A DNA stretch of 64,000 nucleotides from Streptomyces akebiae (GTDB taxonomy: Bacteria; Actinomycetota; Actinomycetes; Streptomycetales; Streptomycetaceae): positions 4,464,001 to 4,528,000 of the forward strand of contig NZ_CP080647.1 of NCBI RefSeq assembly GCF_019599145.1. Reading direction: 5' to 3'. Made by a program: the position numbers and the translations under genes. Of this stretch, positions 51,773 to 61,440 are shown piece by piece; within the stretch, counting starts at the first letter, position 1, and each line of letters opens with the position of its first letter. The notes below the pieces were generated by a model. It was given only the letters and a program-made list of their open reading frames with translations. It had not been told where the DNA came from and ran no database searches.

Positions 51773-53542
51773 ATGCAGGACCCTTCGGACTCGACGGAGA
51801 TCGCCGAGCCTGACGAGAACGGCCGGGGCAATACCGCCGACTCACCTGTTGTGGACGATCCGACGTCCGACTCGGACATCGACTCGACGACGGCGTCGAC
51901 GGTCCTGGTGGAGGTGCTTCCAGGGGTGGCTGTCGTCGCCGGTGAGGTCCCGCCGGAGCTGAAGCCCGATCTGATCGACTTCGGGATCGTGCCGGCTGCC
52001 GACCGCAAGCAGATCTCAGCGATCCTCGCCTCGATCGGGAACGCGGCGACCGTGGTCGGCAATCTCGGAAACGCGTTCGCCAGCGTGCAGGGGCTCTACA
52101 GGATCGGCGACACGGCACAGGCCCTGCTGAAGAGCGGCGCGACGCTCGCCGCCAAGGACGGCGGGAACCTCGGAGCGGTGATGGTTCCTGGCCGCATCCT
52201 GCATCAGGCCCGCTTCTACTCCGTGAATGCGGTGAGCAAGGCGCAGACCGCGGCCTCGATCGGGCCGGCGCTGGCCATGGTCGGCCTTCAGATGATGCTG
52301 AGTGAGGTCTCGGGCCTCGTGAGGACCAACCTCGCGGTGACAAGTCAAGTCCTCACCACCATCCGCAAGGATCAGTGGGCCGAGCTGACGGGGCTCGTCG
52401 CCGCCATCGATCGCGCCGTCGACCAGGCGCGAGAGATCGAATCGGTCCCGACGTCCTTGTGGGAGGACGTCGCGGGCAGTGGAGCGCTGCTGCAGAAGCA
52501 GCTTGAGCTCTACCAGGGGAACGTCCGCGACCACGTCAGGCAGATCGGTCGGGCCGACGCACGCAGCCACCGTGAGTATCTGCAGACGAACGCCGAGGCG
52601 ATCGCCTTCGATGCCTACGCCCTCCTGTCCTCCCTCAAGGCATGGACCGGGTATCACGCGCTCCGCGCCGCAAGGGCGAGAGCCGCTGGACGCGAAGACG
52701 CCGCCGAGGCGCAGTACGCCGAGGTCATCGCGCGCGACACCCGCGCGGAGTTCGACTCCGCTCTCGCCGAGTCGACGAGCCTCGTCGACGCGCTGACGCG
52801 GGAGCTGCGGATCACCGCCGAGCTCCCCGGACCCGACGCATGGCCGCTGCCGGGGAAGCGGAAGGACGTGAAGGCAGCCCGCGAAACCTCCGCCCGTCTT
52901 CTGGAGGCGGTCGAGCCTCTTGCCGACGCTCTCCATCCGCCGGCCCCTCCGCTCAAGGCTCCGGGCGTCGTCTGTACACCCAAATCGCTGGATCTCAAGC
53001 CGTACCTTCGCATCCTGCGATGGCTACTCGAGGACGGTGAGGCTCTACGTGTCCTCGGCTTCCCCGACCAGCTCGATGCCCTCGGTCCCATTTCTGCGAT
53101 CGTCGGCGGAGCGAAGGAGAAATTGGCGGCAGCGAGGGACAAGGCTGCGGCAAAGACACTGGTCGCCGTCACAGATCGCCGCATCATCACGGCCAAGACG
53201 AACGCATTCCTTGAGCAAGCCGAGATCCGGCAAGACATCCCGATTGACCAAGTGCGATACGTCCGAGCAACGACCACACAGGACAGAAGCGCGCGCTTGG
53301 CGATCGACCTCATCACGCGCGACGAGAACATCCGGTGGCTCTTCCACGCTGACGTGGACAACACTCAAGTGGACGCGCTCGCCGCCGTGCTTGCCGAGTC
53401 GATGACGATCCCGGACGCTGAACGCGATGAGCTGCAACGGCGGCGCTACGCCCCTATCGAGGCGGGCAAGAAGAGCGAGAGTACTGGCACGAGGTCTACG
53501 AAACCGACTGGATCCGAGGCCACGACCCGCGATGCCGAGTAG
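51773..53542 (+). CDS. Unknown protein with PH-like (YokE/bPH) C-terminal domain
   Basis: 589 residues from ATG 51773, which has GGGAGGAGATCGC upstream. A disordered acidic N-terminus (~50 residues) is followed by a small/Gly-Ala-rich segment (ISAILASIGNAATVVGNLGN), a long helical middle with coiled-coil character (HALRAARARAAGREDAAEAQ), and a C-terminal ~100-residue beta-rich domain: TLVAVTDRRIITAKTN, then IPIDQVRYVRATTTQDRSAR. The last is the pattern of bacterial PH-like YokE/bPH domains. There is no enzyme motif, signal peptide or clear transmembrane helix. Function unknown. Confidence 0.8.
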   Translation: MQDPSDSTEIAEPDENGRGNTADSPVVDDPTSDSDIDSTTASTVLVEVLPGVAVVAGEVPPELKPDLIDFGIVPAADRKQISAILASIGNAATVVGNLGNAFASVQGLYRIGDTAQALLKSGATLAAKDGGNLGAVMVPGRILHQARFYSVNAVSKAQTAASIGPALAMVGLQMMLSEVSGLVRTNLAVTSQVLTTIRKDQWAELTGLVAAIDRAVDQAREIESVPTSLWEDVAGSGALLQKQLELYQGNVRDHVRQIGRADARSHREYLQTNAEAIAFDAYALLSSLKAWTGYHALRAARARAAGREDAAEAQYAEVIARDTRAEFDSALAESTSLVDALTRELRITAELPGPDAWPLPGKRKDVKAARETSARLLEAVEPLADALHPPAPPLKAPGVVCTPKSLDLKPYLRILRWLLEDGEALRVLGFPDQLDALGPISAIVGGAKEKLAAARDKAAAKTLVAVTDRRIITAKTNAFLEQAEIRQDIPIDQVRYVRATTTQDRSARLAIDLITRDENIRWLFHADVDNTQVDALAAVLAESMTIPDAERDELQRRRYAPIEAGKKSESTGTRSTKPTGSEATTRDAE

Positions 53543-53730
53543 GCCCCGAGCCGATTGAGCAGGTCGTGGCCGGGGCCGATAGGGAAGCAGCCACCGCGTG
53601 ATCATCAGAGGTTGCGTGGAGTTCTGAGTGGGCGGTTCGTGAGCTTTTGGGTTGATCTGGTGTCGCCTGATGGTGTGGTGGCGGGGCGGAACCCGCCGGT
53701 CCGCGGCTATTGATCTGTTGATGTGATCGG

Positions 53731-54579
53731 GTGAGTGAACGCAAGCCGTATCCGAGTGACTTATCGGACGAGCAGTGGTCGTTGATCGAGCCGGTGATCA
53801 CCGCGTGGAAGGACCGGCACCGCTCTGTCAGCGGCCACCAGGGCGCCTACGACATGCGGGAGATCGTGAACGCGATCCTCTACCAGGGGCGGACCGGTTG
53901 CCAGTGGGCCTATCTCCCGCACGACCTGCCGCAGAAGAGCGCGACGTACTACTACTTCGCCGCGTGGCGGGACGACGGGACCGACCAGGTCATCCATGAA
54001 CTGCTGCGCTGCCAGGTCCGGGAGCGCGCCCGGCGATTAGAGGACCCGACCCTGGTGGTCCTGGACACCCAGAGTGTCCATGTGGCCGCCGGGGTCCCCG
54101 CCGCCACGAGCGGCCACGATCCGGCCAAGCGGGTGCCGGGCCGCAAACGCGGCCTGGCCGTGGACGTCCTCGGCCTGGTCATCGCTGTCGTCGTCCTCGC
54201 CGCGAACACCCACGACAACACCGCGGGCATCATCCTGCTGAACCAGGTCGCCCAGCACGCCGGCGGAACCGTCCGCAAAGCCCTGGTCGACCAGGGCTTC
54301 AAGAACCAGGTCGTCCTGCACGGCGCCGGCCTGGGGATCGACGTCGAGATCGTCGCACGCAACCCGCAGGACAAGGGGTTCGTGCCACAGCCGAAGCGGT
54401 GGAGGGTCGAGCAGACCTACGGGATCCTGATACTGCACCGGCGCCTGGTCCGCGACTACGAGCACCGCCCCTCCTCCTCCGCCTCCCGCGTCTACTGGGC
54501 GATGACCCACGTCATGACCCGACGCCTCACCGGCGCGAACGCCCCCACCTGGCGCACGGCACAGGCGGTGGCAGCGTGA
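53731..54579 (+). CDS. IS5-family transposase
   Basis: 282 residues in one frame from GTG 53731. The N-terminal DUF4096-type domain is SDEQWSLIEPVITAWKDRH with the GCQWAYLPHDLP box. The DDE core lies in LVVLDTQSVHV (D), ALVDQGFKN (D) and RWRVEQTYGIL (E). It appears intact. The stop overlaps the passenger gene start (GTGA). Confidence 0.93.
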   Translation: MSERKPYPSDLSDEQWSLIEPVITAWKDRHRSVSGHQGAYDMREIVNAILYQGRTGCQWAYLPHDLPQKSATYYYFAAWRDDGTDQVIHELLRCQVRERARRLEDPTLVVLDTQSVHVAAGVPAATSGHDPAKRVPGRKRGLAVDVLGLVIAVVVLAANTHDNTAGIILLNQVAQHAGGTVRKALVDQGFKNQVVLHGAGLGIDVEIVARNPQDKGFVPQPKRWRVEQTYGILILHRRLVRDYEHRPSSSASRVYWAMTHVMTRRLTGANAPTWRTAQAVAA

Positions 54580-54974
54580 ACATCCGGCCCCTGCTCGATG
54601 CCCTGGACCTCCAGGAAGACGCCGCCCGCGCCCTGGCCGACGACCTCCGCGCACAGATCGACGACCTGCAGACCCGGTGGCGGGAGGCCGAGACGCACCT
54701 GGAACACCTCACGATCACCCGCAAGACCGTCACCGGCCTCGCCGACCGGCTCCCAACCGTCGCGCCGGACCTGCCCGAGCACCCGGACTACCCCCGCATC
54801 CTCGCCGCCTTCAACCACACGACCGGGCCGCTACGGGCCAAGGACGTCTGCGAAGCCCTCGGCCACGAACTGCAACCGAAGAACGTCGAAGGCACCCGCG
54901 CCAAGCTGAAACGCCTGGTCAAACTCGGGATCCTCACCGAGGCCGACACCGGCAACTTCGCCAGGACGCAATAG
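54576..54974 (+). CDS. IS5 passenger gene: coiled-coil plus winged-helix-like protein
   Basis: 132 residues from GTG 54576, coupled by GTGA to the transposase. The N-terminal half is a coiled coil (EDAARALADDLRAQIDDLQT). The C-terminal half looks like a small winged helix (AKDVCEALGHELQPKNVEGT, then RAKLKRLVKLGILTEAD). Similar short proteins follow IS5-type transposases in other Streptomyces as far as I recall. It may be a transposition regulator or accessory DNA-binding factor. Confidence 0.8.
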   Translation: MNIRPLLDALDLQEDAARALADDLRAQIDDLQTRWREAETHLEHLTITRKTVTGLADRLPTVAPDLPEHPDYPRILAAFNHTTGPLRAKDVCEALGHELQPKNVEGTRAKLKRLVKLGILTEADTGNFARTQ

Positions 54975-55270
54975 CCGGCAGAACCTCCACCAGCGTCCTT
55001 GCTCCCACCTCAGCAAGAAACAGACATCACCTTACGAACCGCCCACTGAAGATGGTGCGGTGGCCGTGGGCCAGCGCGCCTTGCGGCAGCTGGTGCACGC
55101 CGTGGCTCAGAGGCGCCCTTGACCAAGGTCTACGAGGACTGTTCGGTTAGGGAAGTTGGGGTGTCGTACTCGGGGGTTGCCTTCGTGACCAGGTCGGTTG
55201 GCAGTGCGTGGTGTCTCATCAGCGGCACCAGGGGGGAATCGGCCGCTCCCTCGGCTGCTGGGGCCTCCGT

Positions 55271-58039
55271 ATGAGACTCCGGCGCGGGATCGCGATCGCC
55301 GTCGTCGCCGGAGGCTGCGCTTTGACCACCATGCTGGTCGGGCTCGTCACGAACGCCGTGTCCGATGAGTCGCGGTGGCCCGGCTGGCTTGGGTGGTTAC
55401 AGGAGCACGCCTGGTTCTCGTTCGTCGTGCTGGGTGTGACGATGGCGGGGCTGACGGCCCTGCTCGCCGGACTCTCCGAGACGCGGCCTCCCACCCCGCC
55501 GGGGCGACCGGAGGATGGAACGGGGCCGCCGGGGGCCGCCCAGGTGCTGCGTTCGTTGCCACGCGACACCGCCGCGTTCACCGACCGTGCCGCGGAGCTG
55601 GAGCGGCTGGTGGGCTCGGTGCGGGCCTCACAGGAGCGCGGCGAGGGTCTGCCCGTTCACGTGATCGACGGCATGCCCGGCGTCGGGAAGACCACCTTCG
55701 CCGTGCACGCCGGCCACCTGCTCTCGGAGCGGTTCCCCGACGGACAGCTCTTCGTGAATCTCAACGGACACACGCCGGGGCGTACTCCGGTACAGGCCGG
55801 CGAGGCGCTCGCCTCGCTTCTCGCGGCCGCCGGCGTGCCGACGCAGCAGATTCCCGTCGGTGATGACGTCGGAGCGGTCACGGAGGCCCGGGCCGCCATG
55901 TGGCGGAGCAGGTTCGCGGACAAGAAGGCGCTGCTGATTCTCGACAACGCGGCCAGTTACCGGCAGCTGGAGCCGCTGCTCCCCGGTGGGAGCGGGTGCC
56001 TGGTGTTGGTGACCAGCCGCAAGCGGCTGGTGGCGAACGAGGAGGTGGTCATGTCGGTGGACGCACTGCCGCCGGATCACGCTGTCGACCTCTTCGTACG
56101 GCTCAGTGGGCGGCCGGCCGATACGTTCGACCGGGATGTGGTGGACGCGTTGGTGCGGCTGTGCGGGTGTCTGCCTCTGGGGGTGTCGCTTCTCGCGGCA
56201 CGGCTGCGGCACCATCCGTCCTGGAACGCCGAGGACCTGCGCGGGCGGCTGGTGGCGGCGCGGGACCGCCTGGGAGAGCTGCGCGCCGGGGAGCGCGCCG
56301 TCACCGCGACGTTCGATCTCTCCTATCGGGATCTCGCGCCGGAGCGGCAGCGCTTCTTCCGGCGGCTCGGGTTATTCCCCGGCACCGATCTCGACCCGCA
56401 CGTCGGTGCGGCTCTGGGTGACGTCTCGGTCGTAGTGGCCCGTCTGCACCTCGAGGCGCTCTACGACGACCACCTGATCGACGAACAACCGGGGAGTCGC
56501 TACCGGCTGCACGATCTCCTGCGGGACTACGCTCGCGGTCTCGCCGCCGAGGGGGACAGCATGGACCACGCACAGGCCGTACAGCGTGTGTGCGCCTACT
56601 ACCTGGCCGCTCTCACCGTCGTGAACGGGCACATCGGGCGCAGTGGTGCCGTAGTGCCACCGGCGCCGGACGGCGCCTCGCGGGTGGAGACTCCGCCCCT
56701 GGAGTCGCGGGCGGACGCCTTGAGCTGGCTGGAGACCGAGCGGGCCAACATCCTGGCCTGCGTCCGGCGGGCGAACGGCCTCGCCCTGTACGACCTCGTG
56801 GTCCGGCTCGCCGCGGCCATGGCGCCCTTCCTGCGCCAGGCCGGCCCCTGGGACCAGGCCGTCGGGCTCCATCGGACCGCCGCCGAGGCCGCCCGCCATA
56901 CCGGCGACCAGCGGGCCCGGGGCGACGCTCTCGCCGAACTCGGTGTCGTACGCCGCTTCATGGCCTCCTACCCACAGGCGATCGAGGCCCTGAACAACGC
57001 CGTGACGGCGTATGAAGCGGTCGACGACCGGCGCGGCAAGGCGGACACACTCAACCAGCTCGGCATCGTCTGGTACCTGACCGCGGACAACGAGGACGCG
57101 GCCCGAGCCCAGACCGACGCCCTCGCCCTCTACCGTGAGCTGGGGAACCGGCTCGGACAGGCGAACGCGCTCGCGGATCTCGGCATGACACACCGGCAGA
57201 TGAGCCGGTTCGACACCGCGGTGGAGGCCCAGAGCGAGGCCCTGGCGATCTACCGAGAACTCGGTGACCGGTACGGGGAGGCGAACTCCCTGCGGGACCT
57301 GGGCGTCGTGCACTGCCTCATGGGCGCGTACGACCTGGCCGCGCGGCATCACCGGGAAGCGTTCGACATCTACCTGGAGCTGGACGATCGTGTGCACCAG
57401 GCGTACGCGCTGAACGAGTTGGGCGTCGTCCGACGACTGACCGGAGACATGGAGGGAGCGCGGACGGCACACAGCCAGGCCCTGACGCACTTCACCGAGC
57501 TCGGTGAACGGTTCGGCCGCGCGACCAGCGTCCGCCAGCTAGGCGTCGTGGAGCGTGTGACCGGAGATGCGACAGAGGCGATCCGGCTTCTGGTGGAGGC
57601 CCTGGACGTCTACCGCGAACTCGGCAGCCGCGGAGGTGAGGCCGCCTCGCTGAGCGAGCTGGGCGTGGCGCGCGGCATCGTCGGTGAGCGCGACGGCGCG
57701 ATCGAGGCGTTCCAACGCGGTTTGCAGATCCTGCGGGGCCTGGGCGACCGGTGCGGCGAGGCAGAGGTACTGAACCACTGGGGGATGCTGCTGTTCACCT
57801 CCGGTGAATCGGCGGCCGCTCGCGGGCACTTCGACCAGGCGCTCACGCTAGCCCGGGACATCCGCTGCCCGCTGGAGGAGGCTCGGGCGCTGGAGGGCAT
57901 CGGCCGATGCGACTGGACGATTGACGGGCCCGGTCACGGCGTGGGCTCGCTGCGAGCCGCCGTGACCGTGTACCGGCGGTTGGGAGTGAGCGCGGCCGTG
58001 AACGACATCGAACGGTTGCTGGTGTCACGGTCCGGTTGA
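55271..58039 (+). CDS. Membrane-anchored NB-ARC/TPR protein next to a radical SAM peptide cluster
   Basis: 922 residues from ATG 55271. Two transmembrane helices lie at about 6-28 and 45-67. An NB-ARC NTPase follows: P-loop GMPGVGKTT at 134-142, LLILDNA as Walker B, GLPL-like CLPLGVSLLAARL, and LHDLLRDYARG as the MHD-type region. From about residue 520 some ten TPR repeats of ~40 residues run to the C-terminus (ALAELGVVRRFMASYPQAIE is typical). Unlike SARP or AfsR proteins it has no N-terminal HTH. FxsT-like proteins with NB-ARC/TPR accompany FxsB maturases; here the anchor suggests membrane-linked sensing or peptide handling. Confidence 0.88.
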   Translation: MRLRRGIAIAVVAGGCALTTMLVGLVTNAVSDESRWPGWLGWLQEHAWFSFVVLGVTMAGLTALLAGLSETRPPTPPGRPEDGTGPPGAAQVLRSLPRDTAAFTDRAAELERLVGSVRASQERGEGLPVHVIDGMPGVGKTTFAVHAGHLLSERFPDGQLFVNLNGHTPGRTPVQAGEALASLLAAAGVPTQQIPVGDDVGAVTEARAAMWRSRFADKKALLILDNAASYRQLEPLLPGGSGCLVLVTSRKRLVANEEVVMSVDALPPDHAVDLFVRLSGRPADTFDRDVVDALVRLCGCLPLGVSLLAARLRHHPSWNAEDLRGRLVAARDRLGELRAGERAVTATFDLSYRDLAPERQRFFRRLGLFPGTDLDPHVGAALGDVSVVVARLHLEALYDDHLIDEQPGSRYRLHDLLRDYARGLAAEGDSMDHAQAVQRVCAYYLAALTVVNGHIGRSGAVVPPAPDGASRVETPPLESRADALSWLETERANILACVRRANGLALYDLVVRLAAAMAPFLRQAGPWDQAVGLHRTAAEAARHTGDQRARGDALAELGVVRRFMASYPQAIEALNNAVTAYEAVDDRRGKADTLNQLGIVWYLTADNEDAARAQTDALALYRELGNRLGQANALADLGMTHRQMSRFDTAVEAQSEALAIYRELGDRYGEANSLRDLGVVHCLMGAYDLAARHHREAFDIYLELDDRVHQAYALNELGVVRRLTGDMEGARTAHSQALTHFTELGERFGRATSVRQLGVVERVTGDATEAIRLLVEALDVYRELGSRGGEAASLSELGVARGIVGERDGAIEAFQRGLQILRGLGDRCGEAEVLNHWGMLLFTSGESAAARGHFDQALTLARDIRCPLEEARALEGIGRCDWTIDGPGHGVGSLRAAVTVYRRLGVSAAVNDIERLLVSRSG

Positions 58040-58166
58040 CGCCGACCACGTGGCCGAATTTCCTGTGCCAGGTGGGATGTTGAGGATGCTACGTTTCCGG
58101 CTGATCTGTCGCTTCAACCCCGTCGCACTGTGCCGCCTCCGGCACGTACCTCACGAGGAGCGTTGA

Positions 58167-58370
58167 ATGCCGCCACCCGCGTCCGTCACCGAGCCATGCA
58201 CCATCACGCCCGTCGGCCCGGCGTCCGTGGAGCCGACGGCGTCCGGCACCGCCGTCCTGGACCGCGTGGCCGCCCGCGTTCGACAGCGGCTGGAGGCCGA
58301 GGAGGGCGCGACGGGCCCGGTCGGTGCCGGTGCCCACGCGGCCTCGCTCATCTGGCCCTGGCCGCTGTGA
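58167..58370 (+). CDS. Candidate RiPP precursor peptide ending WPWPL
   Basis: 67 residues from ATG 58167, which has GAGGAG 7 nt upstream. It has a Pro/Thr-rich start, an amphipathic helix (AVLDRVAARVRQRLEAEEG), a small-residue linker (TGPVGAGAHA) and the terminal SLIWPWPL. It lies 127 bp after the NB-ARC/TPR gene and 13 bp before the radical SAM gene, the expected place for a precursor. FxsA-type peptides end FxSxx; this one does not, but aromatic residues close to the C-terminus suit a cyclophane-forming enzyme. The helix would be the leader and the end the core. Product unknown. Confidence 0.65.
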   Translation: MPPPASVTEPCTITPVGPASVEPTASGTAVLDRVAARVRQRLEAEEGATGPVGAGAHAASLIWPWPL

Positions 58371-58383
58371 GCACGTCCGCTCG

Positions 58384-59553
58384 ATGACAGAACCTGAAGA
58401 ACCCGAAGGCCCCGTACCTTTTCAGACGTTCATCCTCAAGGTCGCCAACCGCTGCAACATCGACTGCGACTACTGCTTCGTCTTCAACTCCAAGGACCAG
58501 GCGGCGCGGCGCCTGCCCGCCCGAATGGACCTCGCTGTGGCCCGGGCTGCGGCCCGGCGGATCGGTGAACACGCTTCCGCACACCGCCTTCGGACCGTCC
58601 ACGTCGTACTGCACGGCGGGGAGCCGCTTCTCATCGGTGTCGGGCACATGGCCGGTCTACTTGAGGCCGTCCGGGACGCTGCGCCGGCCGGGACCCGGGT
58701 CCTCTTCGAGCTCCAGACCAACGGAACTCTTCTGTCCGATGCCTGGCTGGACCTCTTCGAGCGGTACGAGGTCGCGGTCGGCGTCAGCCTCGACGGACCG
58801 CCACGTGCAAATGACCGGCACCGGCTGACCCACGCAGGGCGGTCGAGCGCCGCCTCCGCCATGCGCGGCATCGAACTCCTGCGGTCGCGGCCACACCTGT
58901 TCGCGGGGCTGCTCGCCGTCGTGGACCTGGCCAACGACCCCGTGGAGGTCCACGACTACCTGGCGGCGTTCGAACCGCCCGTGGTCGACTTCGGCCTGCC
59001 GCACGCGACCCACGACGACCCGCCGCACCGCGCCGACCCGAGCGTGCCCGAGTACGGGCTGTGGATGAGCAGGGTGTACGACGCCTGGCTCGCCCGGCCC
59101 GAGTACGGGCACAGCGTCCGGATGCTGGAAGACATCGTGGCCCTCAGCTCTGGCGTGCGCGGCTCGGTGGAGACGCTCGGCCTGGCCCCGCCGACAAGCG
59201 TCGTGATCGAGTCCGACGGCTCCATCGAGGCCGTGGACACCCTGCGGTCGGTCGAGGAGGGTGCCACCTGGCTCGGGCTCGACGTCCTCCGCCACTCTTT
59301 CGACGAAGCTCTGTCGCATCCGAAGCTGTTGCACCGGCAGCACGGCAAGGACGCGCTCGCCGAGCAGTGCCGCGCCTGCCCACTCGTGGACGTGTGCGGC
59401 GGTGGCTACCTCCCACACCGCTTCAGCGAAGCCCAGGGCTACCGGAACCCGTCTGTCTACTGCACGGACCTGGAGTACCTCATCCGACACGTCCAGAGCT
59501 CCCTGCGGCAGCACGGCTGGAACCCCTACGCGCAGGCCGCATCGCCGCCGTAG
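58384..59553 (+). CDS. Radical SAM/SPASM peptide maturase (FxsB-like)
   Basis: 389 residues from ATG 58384. The radical SAM cluster motif is Cys24-x3-Cys28-x2-Cys31 (NRCNIDCDYCFVF), with HGGEPLL as the SAM-binding GGE and LQTNGTLLS following. The SPASM region has Cys329, Cys332, Cys338 (QCRACPLVDVCGGGYLPHRF) and Cys360, enough for an auxiliary 4Fe-4S cluster. It resembles FxsB and other three-residue-cyclophane-forming maturases that join aromatic side chains to neighbouring beta-carbons. Substrate is most likely the peptide encoded just upstream. Confidence 0.9.
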   Translation: MTEPEEPEGPVPFQTFILKVANRCNIDCDYCFVFNSKDQAARRLPARMDLAVARAAARRIGEHASAHRLRTVHVVLHGGEPLLIGVGHMAGLLEAVRDAAPAGTRVLFELQTNGTLLSDAWLDLFERYEVAVGVSLDGPPRANDRHRLTHAGRSSAASAMRGIELLRSRPHLFAGLLAVVDLANDPVEVHDYLAAFEPPVVDFGLPHATHDDPPHRADPSVPEYGLWMSRVYDAWLARPEYGHSVRMLEDIVALSSGVRGSVETLGLAPPTSVVIESDGSIEAVDTLRSVEEGATWLGLDVLRHSFDEALSHPKLLHRQHGKDALAEQCRACPLVDVCGGGYLPHRFSEAQGYRNPSVYCTDLEYLIRHVQSSLRQHGWNPYAQAASPP

Positions 59554-59645
59554 ACGCGTGCCCCGTACCGCCAGGAGGGGATCACGCGTTGGAACGAACG
59601 AGTGCAGCAGCGACCGAAGCAACCGAGGAAGGACAGGAGGCGCCG

Positions 59646-60125
59646 ATGACCGTGACGATCCGTCCCGCGGAGAAGCGGGACGTCCCGGCCGTGGCCGGGC
59701 TGATCGAGGAGATCGAGCGGTTCTACGGGGCCGCCGACACAGATATCCAGCCGATCGAGGAGCGCCGCCTCCAGGTGGAAGAAGCCCTCTTCGGCGTGCC
59801 ACCGCTGGCTTCCGCCCTGCTCGTCGAGGACGAGACCGGGGACATCGTGGGCCTCGCCGCCTATTCCTTCCTCTGGCCGGCTACCGGCTCCTCGCACTCC
59901 CTGTTCCTGAAGGAGCTCTACGTCCGCGACACCCTGCGTCGGCAGGGCATCGGTGCTCGCCTCATGGACGAACTCCGCGCCCTGGCCGCCGCGCGCCCCG
60001 GGTGCAGCCGGGTGGAATGGATGACTGACCGCGACAACCCAGGCGCACGGGCCTTCTACGAGTCGCGCGGGTTCACCGAGTCCGACGGGAAGATCGTCTA
60101 CCGGGTCGACTCCGGCACCGCGTGA
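59646..60125 (+). CDS. GNAT acetyltransferase
   Basis: 159 residues from ATG 59646, with GGAGG upstream. A standard GNAT fold: MTVTIRPAEKRDVPAVAGLI at the start, acetyl-CoA loop LRRQGIGARLMDEL (motif A), and C-terminal DRDNPGARAFYESRGF. It lies 92 bp after the maturase on the same strand. It may acetylate the processed peptide or protect the producer; which is not shown by the sequence. Confidence 0.9.
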   Translation: MTVTIRPAEKRDVPAVAGLIEEIERFYGAADTDIQPIEERRLQVEEALFGVPPLASALLVEDETGDIVGLAAYSFLWPATGSSHSLFLKELYVRDTLRRQGIGARLMDELRALAAARPGCSRVEWMTDRDNPGARAFYESRGFTESDGKIVYRVDSGTA

Positions 60126-60141
60126 GGGTGGTACGAGACCA

Positions 60142-60510
60142 GTGAAAGAGGAGCGCTGCGAGGAGTGCGGCAGCAAGATCGTCATCGGGCTCGGATGCGA
60201 ATGTCCGCCGGGCTCGTCCGCGTCGGCGCCCTCGCGTTCGGTAGGCACGTTCGTGAAGAGGGAGTGGCGTACTCACCCGGAGGACACGATCCTGATCTCC
60301 CCGGCTCGGTGCGCGCACAGGCCCGGCTGGTGCGACCACATGACCGAGGACGACGTACGGCCGCCACGGTGGGGGTGGATCACGAATCCTCCACCTGGGC
60401 TCTGGGAGCGGTTGAGTACTGCTTCTCCGGCGACCGCCACCGCGGGCAACCAGAGCCGACGGGCCGTACGGCGGTGCACCGACTGCGAGTTGAACCTTGC
60501 GCAGGGTTGA
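60142..60510 (+). CDS. Small Cys-rich protein, possible zinc ribbon
   Basis: 122 residues from GTG 60142, 16 bp after the GNAT stop. Cysteines come in pairs: ERCEECGSK, GLGCECPP, two more in PARCAHRPGWCDH, and RRCTDCELN at the C-terminus, so one or two structural zinc sites are likely. The middle is Trp/Pro-rich (RPPRWGWITNPPPGLWERL). I recognise no family. Spacing suggests it is the last gene of the peptide operon. Confidence 0.55.
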   Translation: MKEERCEECGSKIVIGLGCECPPGSSASAPSRSVGTFVKREWRTHPEDTILISPARCAHRPGWCDHMTEDDVRPPRWGWITNPPPGLWERLSTASPATATAGNQSRRAVRRCTDCELNLAQG

Positions 60511-60595: not shown

Positions 60596-61403
60596 TCAGT
60601 AGGTGATGACGAGCCGTACGGAAGGCCGGTCGATCACGGCTCCGTCGGCGAGGTCGTTGTCCGGTGTGTCCGCGGGGTAGGCGGTGACTGCGGGTTCGAC
60701 GGTCCTGGCCGGGCTCCAGGCGCGGATCTGCGCGCAGATCCGCTCGGCGAGATCGGCGCCGGCCGGGCCGTAGCCGACGGCTCCCAGCCGGAACCGGGGT
60801 TCGGTGCCCGGGTCTGCGGCGGTGCGCTCCAGGGTGAAGTACGCGATGGAGTCACCCTCGACGAGGGCGGGGCTCAGGGCGGGCGAGGCGGGGCGGTGAA
60901 GGCCGGCCTCCATCGCCGCGGGATTCGCGGTGATACGGCAGGTCGCTCGCTCGGTGGCACTGAGGCGCAGCCATACGCCGTCGAAGGACTCGACGGGGCC
61001 GACCGTCGCGTCGGTCCAGACGACCGTCTTCGGTCGGGTGAGGGCGTCACGCAGGAGTTCCGGGACGATGGGCTGGTCCTCGTCCCAGTAGAGCCTGACG
61101 AACCGGTCGTCGTCGATGTAGTCGTTCCGCTCTCCGTCCTGGCCGATCACCGGGAGGAAGCCGCACATCTTCACGGAGTCGGACGTCATCCGGTCCTTCT
61201 CGCGTCGGAACGCCACGGACCGCGACAGCCCGCGCCATCGCAGCGGGACGACGAGGCGTCCGCCGACGGCGAGCTGGTCCCACCAGGTTCCGGGGAGGTC
61301 CCACATGCCGACGGCGGCGATCATGCGGTCGTAGGGGCTGAACTCCTCGGCGCCGAGGGCGCCGTCCCTGGTGACCACGCGAACGTCGTCGCACCCGTTC
61401 GCG
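60596..61403 (-). pseudogene. C-terminal half of an FxLD-system-type methyltransferase
   Basis: About 268 residues remain. The retained part starts ELDANGCDDVRVVTRDGALG (end of the SAM-binding domain), continues with SPYDRMIAAVGMWDLPGTWW and LAVGGRLVVPLRWRGLSRSV, and ends RPSVRLVITY. This matches PCMT-like methyltransferases of FxLD-type RiPP systems. The N-terminal half, including the SAM motif E-x-G-x-G, is gone. The break coincides with a 37-bp IS256 end, and the upstream frame is not homologous. Confidence 0.75.
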
Positions 61404-61440
61404 TCCAGCTCGGGAGTTACACCGCTCACCGTACAGACCC
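61404..61440. mobile_element. Solo IS256 right end (37 bp)
   Basis: TCCAGCTCGGGAGTTACACC and the following 17 bases are identical to 47934-47970, the right end of the intact IS256 copy. No other IS sequence is present, so this is a scar of deletion or adjacent transposition that removed the methyltransferase 5' half. Confidence 0.88.

Follow-up and report, generated by a model that had tools for sequence, protein, structure and literature searches.

The haa locus and its gene order

The five genes at positions 55271 to 60510 of the window (the whole 64,000-nucleotide stretch of Streptomyces akebiae DNA that was analysed) are a Streptomyces copy of the already named haa cluster, and are expected to make a small peptide carrying a His-to-Ala ring. 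Gene identities, gene order, conservation and the core motif are directly established for this locus. We assign a probability of about 0.92 to the reading as a whole, according to which this is a triceptide locus of the HaaA family whose maturase HaaB would form a cyclophane between His57 and Ala59 of the precursor, with HaaT, HaaN and a Cys-rich protein acting as proposed below. All five open reading frames were found as neighbours on the plus strand, as originally predicted, and the features of the locus are the following:

haaT, 55271–58039, plus strand: NB-ARC (STAND ATPase) and TPR protein, with two hydrophobic segments near the N-terminus; a GTG at 55208 is an alternative start
haaT-haaA spacer element, 58051–58095, plus strand: TGGCC at 58051–58055 and TGCTACGTT at 58087–58095; conserved
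haaA, 58167–58370, plus strand: 67-residue precursor with a leader helix at residues 29–47 and the tail HAASLIWPWPL; NF041708
HAAS codons (His57-Ala58-Ala59-Ser60), 58335–58346, plus strand: predicted His-Ala cross-link site
haaB, 58384–59553, plus strand: radical SAM/SPASM maturase; TIGR04269; alternative GTG start at 58324
haaN, 59646–60125, plus strand: GNAT acetyltransferase; NF041716 and Pfam
Fifth gene, labelled CysR here, 60142–60510, plus strand: Cys-rich protein of 122 residues for which no named family was found

With 58384 as the start of haaB, 13 nucleotides separate it from haaA. Of the five proteins, four score above the cut-off of an NCBIfam family, namely HaaA (NF041708, 110 bits against 55), HaaT (NF041717, 1605 against 1125, the profile beginning at residue 4 when residues are counted from the ATG), HaaN (NF041716, 305 against 250) and HaaB (TIGR04269, the SPASM-bearing model of the FxsB subfamily, 416 against 370). 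HaaN is also assigned to GNAT by Pfam, in agreement with the acetyltransferase anticipated earlier. These curated matches support the original prediction of a cyclophane-type RiPP and rule out a new RiPP class. The undescribed subfamily that had been suspected is the named HaaA family, for which the HaaB cross-link is in print; what was supposed to be a new class can be placed within an existing one. The HaaA family (NF041708, NF041717 and NF041716, with the HaaB of triceptides) shares with the window locus the precursor, the TPR protein, the GNAT protein, the FxsB-family maturase, the gene order and the HAA motif; the window differs in having the CysR gene behind, as do 30 of 44 relatives with an intact or partial copy.

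Relatives were found by a maturase scan of genome contigs, of which the best 80 of 129, in 78 loci, were kept. They include 44 named actinobacterial loci (L025–L068), which overlap with the unnamed loci L009–L024, so that the two sets are not independent. The order haaT-haaA-haaB-haaN recurs in 43 of the 44 named loci, the peptides of L063 and L064 having been identified by reading plus pattern search; the exception, L068, is incomplete and holds only part of the maturase and HaaN. The HaaA model gave matches in 15 of the 297 family genomes, all of them above the cut-off, and in none of 14 controls.

The maturase HaaB

HaaB contains the motif CNIDCDYC (58453–58476), and SPASM-like cysteines were located by eye at about 59368–59463. 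Pfam lists Radical_SAM and no SPASM domain for this protein. The radical SAM/SPASM maturase of the original prediction is thus borne out by the motif and by TIGR04269, with the SPASM cysteines seen by eye only. None of the 25 NCBIfam families listed is specific for HaaB, and the match is to the broad FxsB subfamily only. The models of the YhhB and XyeB maturases, which are likewise cyclophane-forming radical SAM/SPASM enzymes, score 358 and 166 bits, under their cut-offs of 445 and 450.

A maximum likelihood tree was built from 62 of 86 maturase rows after short or weak matches, such as L008 and L068, had been dropped. The window HaaB clusters with 43 relatives in a single clade (support 99/99), next to a group of six FxsB-type paralogs encoded by its own genome (100/99); several other rows are long-branched, and groupings of long branches can be spurious. 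That the window maturase falls inside the clade of these 43 relatives speaks against the separate new subfamily that a tree was proposed to reveal. The same genome contains seven further maturase relatives (L002–L008). The FxsB subfamily model is satisfied by six of them, and the model for anaerobic sulfatase maturases by the seventh; about 6 kb lie between the FxsB-type genes L002 and L006.

The precursor HaaA and the predicted cross-link site

HaaA comprises 67 residues and ends with GAHAASLIWPWPL. The HxA core motif is present as HAAS at residues 57–60. The short open reading frame proves to be conserved beside homologous maturases, since a peptide with HxAS occurs in 43 of the 44 named loci (from the best 80 of 129 relatives). 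Among 42 distinct tails, position 2 is Ala in 33, Gln in five, Ser in three and His in one; the search pattern behind these tails requires H.AS, so that the constancy of HxAS in them is partly built in. When peptides were picked by a Trp near the end or by length, with no demand for H.AS, HxAS was found in 58 of 60 loci (L009–L068), in a list that consists of the same peptides, in which L064 was read by eye and L068 is incomplete.

The WPWPL part varies. Of the 42 tails, 30 retain its first Trp (tail position 7), 37 its second (position 9) and 30 the last Leu, and the exact ending occurs in 18 of 43 relatives, being altered or absent in the others. The peptides of Dactylosporangium and Actinoplanes (Micromonosporaceae) end with HSASIPEHP and HSASIPAR, lacking both Trp residues while keeping HSAS. 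Because the ending varies and is missing from these two peptides while HxAS recurs, WPWPL-like endings belong to the peptides of Streptomycetaceae and are not the shared core. The ending had been regarded as peculiar to this locus; it is a family trait, and the proposed alignment of C-termini brings out HxAS in its place. WPWPL as a candidate core is accordingly weakened, and the likely reacting residues shift to His-x-Ala, that is, to His57 and Ala59 and not to Trp.

In print, passages of a review attribute a C2(His)-Cβ(Ala) cross-link to HaaB and describe the same link for ScaB, a His-Ala cyclophane maturase whose native His-Ala-Ala substrate resembles that of HaaB (PMC11002830). For the window locus the link is a prediction from the precursor's motif.

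Substitution patterns were determined for the window and 10 relatives, chosen among 43 scanned loci for equal peptide length and a HAASLI.P.P tail. The pN/pS ratio is 0.04 for residues 29–47 and 0.72 for residues 48–67. With four proteins above NCBIfam cut-offs and the order recurring in 43 of 44 relatives, the ratio of 0.04 argues that the arrangement is not due to chance. For residues 2–28, pN exceeds pS (ratio 4.3, with few synonymous changes), and the variable columns in the first 28 codons number 13, 12 and 7 by codon position (window and 11 loci). The segment is read as an unconstrained spacer. These values, like the ratio of 0.72 for residues 48–67, fit less well with the overall reading.

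Two other readings bear on the identity and the chemistry of the locus. That it is an FxsABT-type cluster (FxSxx-COOH) with a diverged peptide would agree with the score of HaaB for the FxsB subfamily, with the NTPase/TPR partner and with a partial similarity of HaaT to the TPR model of the FxSxx system, but that model reaches 106 bits against a cut-off of 300, where the HaaT model reaches 1605, the peptide ends with HAASLIWPWPL and not with FxSxx, and the HaaB clade stands apart from the six FxsB-type paralogs that its own genome encodes. FxsABT membership is ruled out by how the peptide ends and by the TPR score, and we consider this reading hardly credible. A modification of the Trp residues of WPWPL, in place of HAA or in addition to it, would be in keeping with the retention of position 9 in 37 of 42 tails and with the Trp links of other triceptide enzymes noted in passages of the review (PMC11002830). 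Against it stand the loss of position 7 from 12 tails, the two Micromonosporaceae peptides that keep HSAS and neither Trp, and the His-Ala nature of the HaaB and ScaB links described in the same passages, and we regard it as improbable.

The fifth gene, CysR

CysR has no match in NCBIfam or Pfam, and a Pfam search with 20 members of the family gave nothing better than an E-value of 0.76. The protein contains CxxC, CxC and CxxC pairs and a conserved C-x-H. In an alignment of 20 copies (the window and 19 loci), C6, C9, C19, C21, H59, C64 and H66 never vary and C112 and C115 hardly do; zinc sites are therefore predicted, as the conserved Cys and His residues suggest. An AlphaFold2 model computed on this family's alignment A1 has a mean pLDDT of 74, with block means of 79–94 for residues 51–120 and values down to 40 before them. 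Neither a Foldseek comparison of the model with the PDB (no match at E ≤ 0.001, best E 5) nor a profile search against PDB sequences (lowest E 0.46) gave a relative. Literature listings retrieved by topic (CysR carries no published name) showed nothing on a fifth haa gene.

CysR was counted when located within about 2.5 kb behind haaN, and as intact when at least 88% of the model lay in one open frame. By this measure it is intact in 24, partial in six and absent in 14 of the 44 loci (from the best 80 of 129); the weakest partial match, in L062, scores 15 bits. In the family sample it was found in 33 of 297 genomes, comprising nine of the 15 with a HaaA match and 24 of the 282 without one. All nine copies in HaaA genomes lie within 2 kb of haaA, three of them being partial (G266, G021 and G026), and two of the 24 other matches are weak (G125 and G233). 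The association with HaaA has a Fisher odds ratio of 16 (p = 2.8e-6), a figure that ignores shared descent and rests on a model derived from copies linked to haa. CysR occurs in 18 of the 394 genomes of the class sample.

Twenty stretches around CysR copies outside haa were compared, 12 from the family sample and eight from the class sample. Of the open reading frames recurring near these copies in three or more loci, those listed overlap the CysR frame or adjoin it, except for L178:8379–9308, a 309-residue frame with relatives in two other CysR loci. In L177, CysR lies beside a haaN remnant, and no other haa gene was matched in the 14-kb stretch. The copy at L191:6781–7641 (minus strand) carries an N-terminal extension with no Pfam match; it contains EVKTSAHLQAW, a stretch reminiscent of nuclease-like proteins.

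CysR is a frequent but dispensable accessory and not an essential part of the system. The original prediction had counted the Cys-rich gene as a member of the group, which holds in so far as it is a frequent neighbour of haaN and fails in so far as it is dispensable, absent from 14 and partial in six of the 44 loci. Its role is perhaps protective or regulatory. Because CysR often lies behind haaN, is decayed or missing elsewhere and can persist where the rest of the cluster is gone (L177), it might represent a new small zinc-binding family that protects from, or regulates, His-Ala cyclophane peptides, but we hold this to be rather unlikely.

HaaT and its possible roles

Pfam assigns NB-ARC and TPR_12 to HaaT, and a simple hydropathy count gives hydrophobic segments at residues 7–25 and 50–68, with a further peak at 290–308. 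The predicted membrane NB-ARC/TPR protein with two N-terminal segments is thus recovered. These two segments, which had been read as transmembrane helices and taken as a peculiarity of this locus, are a family trait, the segments being present in 10 of 10 HaaT relatives checked. At E ≤ 0.001 the HaaT model matches 292 of 394 genomes of the class and six of 14 controls, which is what NB-ARC/TPR proteins would lead one to expect, so that a match counts only when it exceeds the cut-off. With no more than two candidates scored per genome, such matches were found in two of the 394 genomes, both belonging to the genus of the window.

As to function, the locus could belong to a conflict or immune-like system, with the NB-ARC/TPR ATPase acting as sensor or effector and the modified peptide serving as its signal or toxin, a reading that concerns the role and is compatible with the cyclophane chemistry. 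Passages of a study of NTP-dependent conflict systems propose this for FxSxx-type modules, whose peptide would be a toxin or signal accompanied by AP-ATPase/TPR partners (PMC7159879), and HaaT keeps both NB-ARC and TPR. No vWA, MoxR, TIR or zincin domain was detected among ten proteins scanned, however, and PADLOC returned generic TPR and viperin matches only (four proteins scanned), and we think such a role doubtful. CysR, in turn, may be an unrelated passenger, which is a serious possibility at somewhat less than even odds. Its absence or partial state in 20 of the 44 loci (best 80 of 129), its presence in 24 of 282 genomes with no HaaA match and the lack of a widespread common neighbour in the 20 stretches around non-haa copies agree with this. 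On the other side, an intact or partial copy lies within about 100 nucleotides behind haaN in 28 of the 44 loci, and HaaA genomes carry CysR in nine of 15 cases as opposed to 24 of 282, always within 2 kb of haaA, in a comparison that ignores descent.

Proposed mechanism

For the haa locus with its predicted His-Ala cyclophane, we envisage that HaaB, the radical SAM/SPASM enzyme, recognises the HaaA leader, probably through the conserved helix VLDRVAxRVRQRL, and would form a bond between His57 (at C2) and Ala59 (at its beta carbon) that closes an imidazole cyclophane of three residues. The leader would then be cut off by a protease; in a scan of ten proteins encoded between 51773 and 63386, NCBIfam and Pfam matched no peptidase of any kind, zincin-like peptidases included. 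HaaN might acetylate the product or a target, or protect the producer, and HaaT, as a membrane-anchored STAND ATPase, may sense, move or signal the peptide. CysR would be an optional, probably zinc-binding accessory. The roles of HaaT, HaaN, CysR and the protease are all ones that we infer. The parts of the haa system that deserve attention are the Cys-rich accessory, the leader peptidase, the roles of the membrane NB-ARC/TPR protein and of HaaN, and the spacer element.

The spacer element before haaA

The spacers between haaT and haaA of the window and 19 chosen loci were compared. TG[CT]TA is present in 20 of 20 and TG[CT]TAC in 19, and TGGCC in 16; the distance from TGGCC to TG[CT]TA is 36 nucleotides in 15 of the 16 spacers with both, and 35 in the remaining one. 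The sequence TGCTACGTT resembles the consensus of an extended −10 element. We infer a putative promoter of its own for haaA, with TGGCC as a candidate part of an upstream site.

Flanking genes

Behind CysR, a minus-strand gene at 60599–61408 encodes a methyltransferase of the FxLD-system type that matches only residues 167–436 of the 436-codon open frame of L025; tblastn found its missing first part nowhere in the window. The full frame lies behind CysR in five close loci (L025, L026, L028, L031 and L065). Upstream of the truncated methyltransferase, a cytochrome P450 gene (62022–63386, minus strand) was identified by NCBIfam and Pfam, and the matches listed for the 60 loci L009–L068 include no P450. 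On the other side, the plus-strand frame 51773–53542 encodes a 589-residue protein with no NCBIfam or Pfam match, which lies upstream of haaT in six of the 44 loci (L027, L029, L030, L031, L034 and L065), the relatives in L030 and L034 being partial matches. In the window this frame is separated from haaT by an IS5-type element just upstream of haaT, at 53627–55047, where a transposase gene lies between 17-nucleotide inverted repeats that are 94% complementary.
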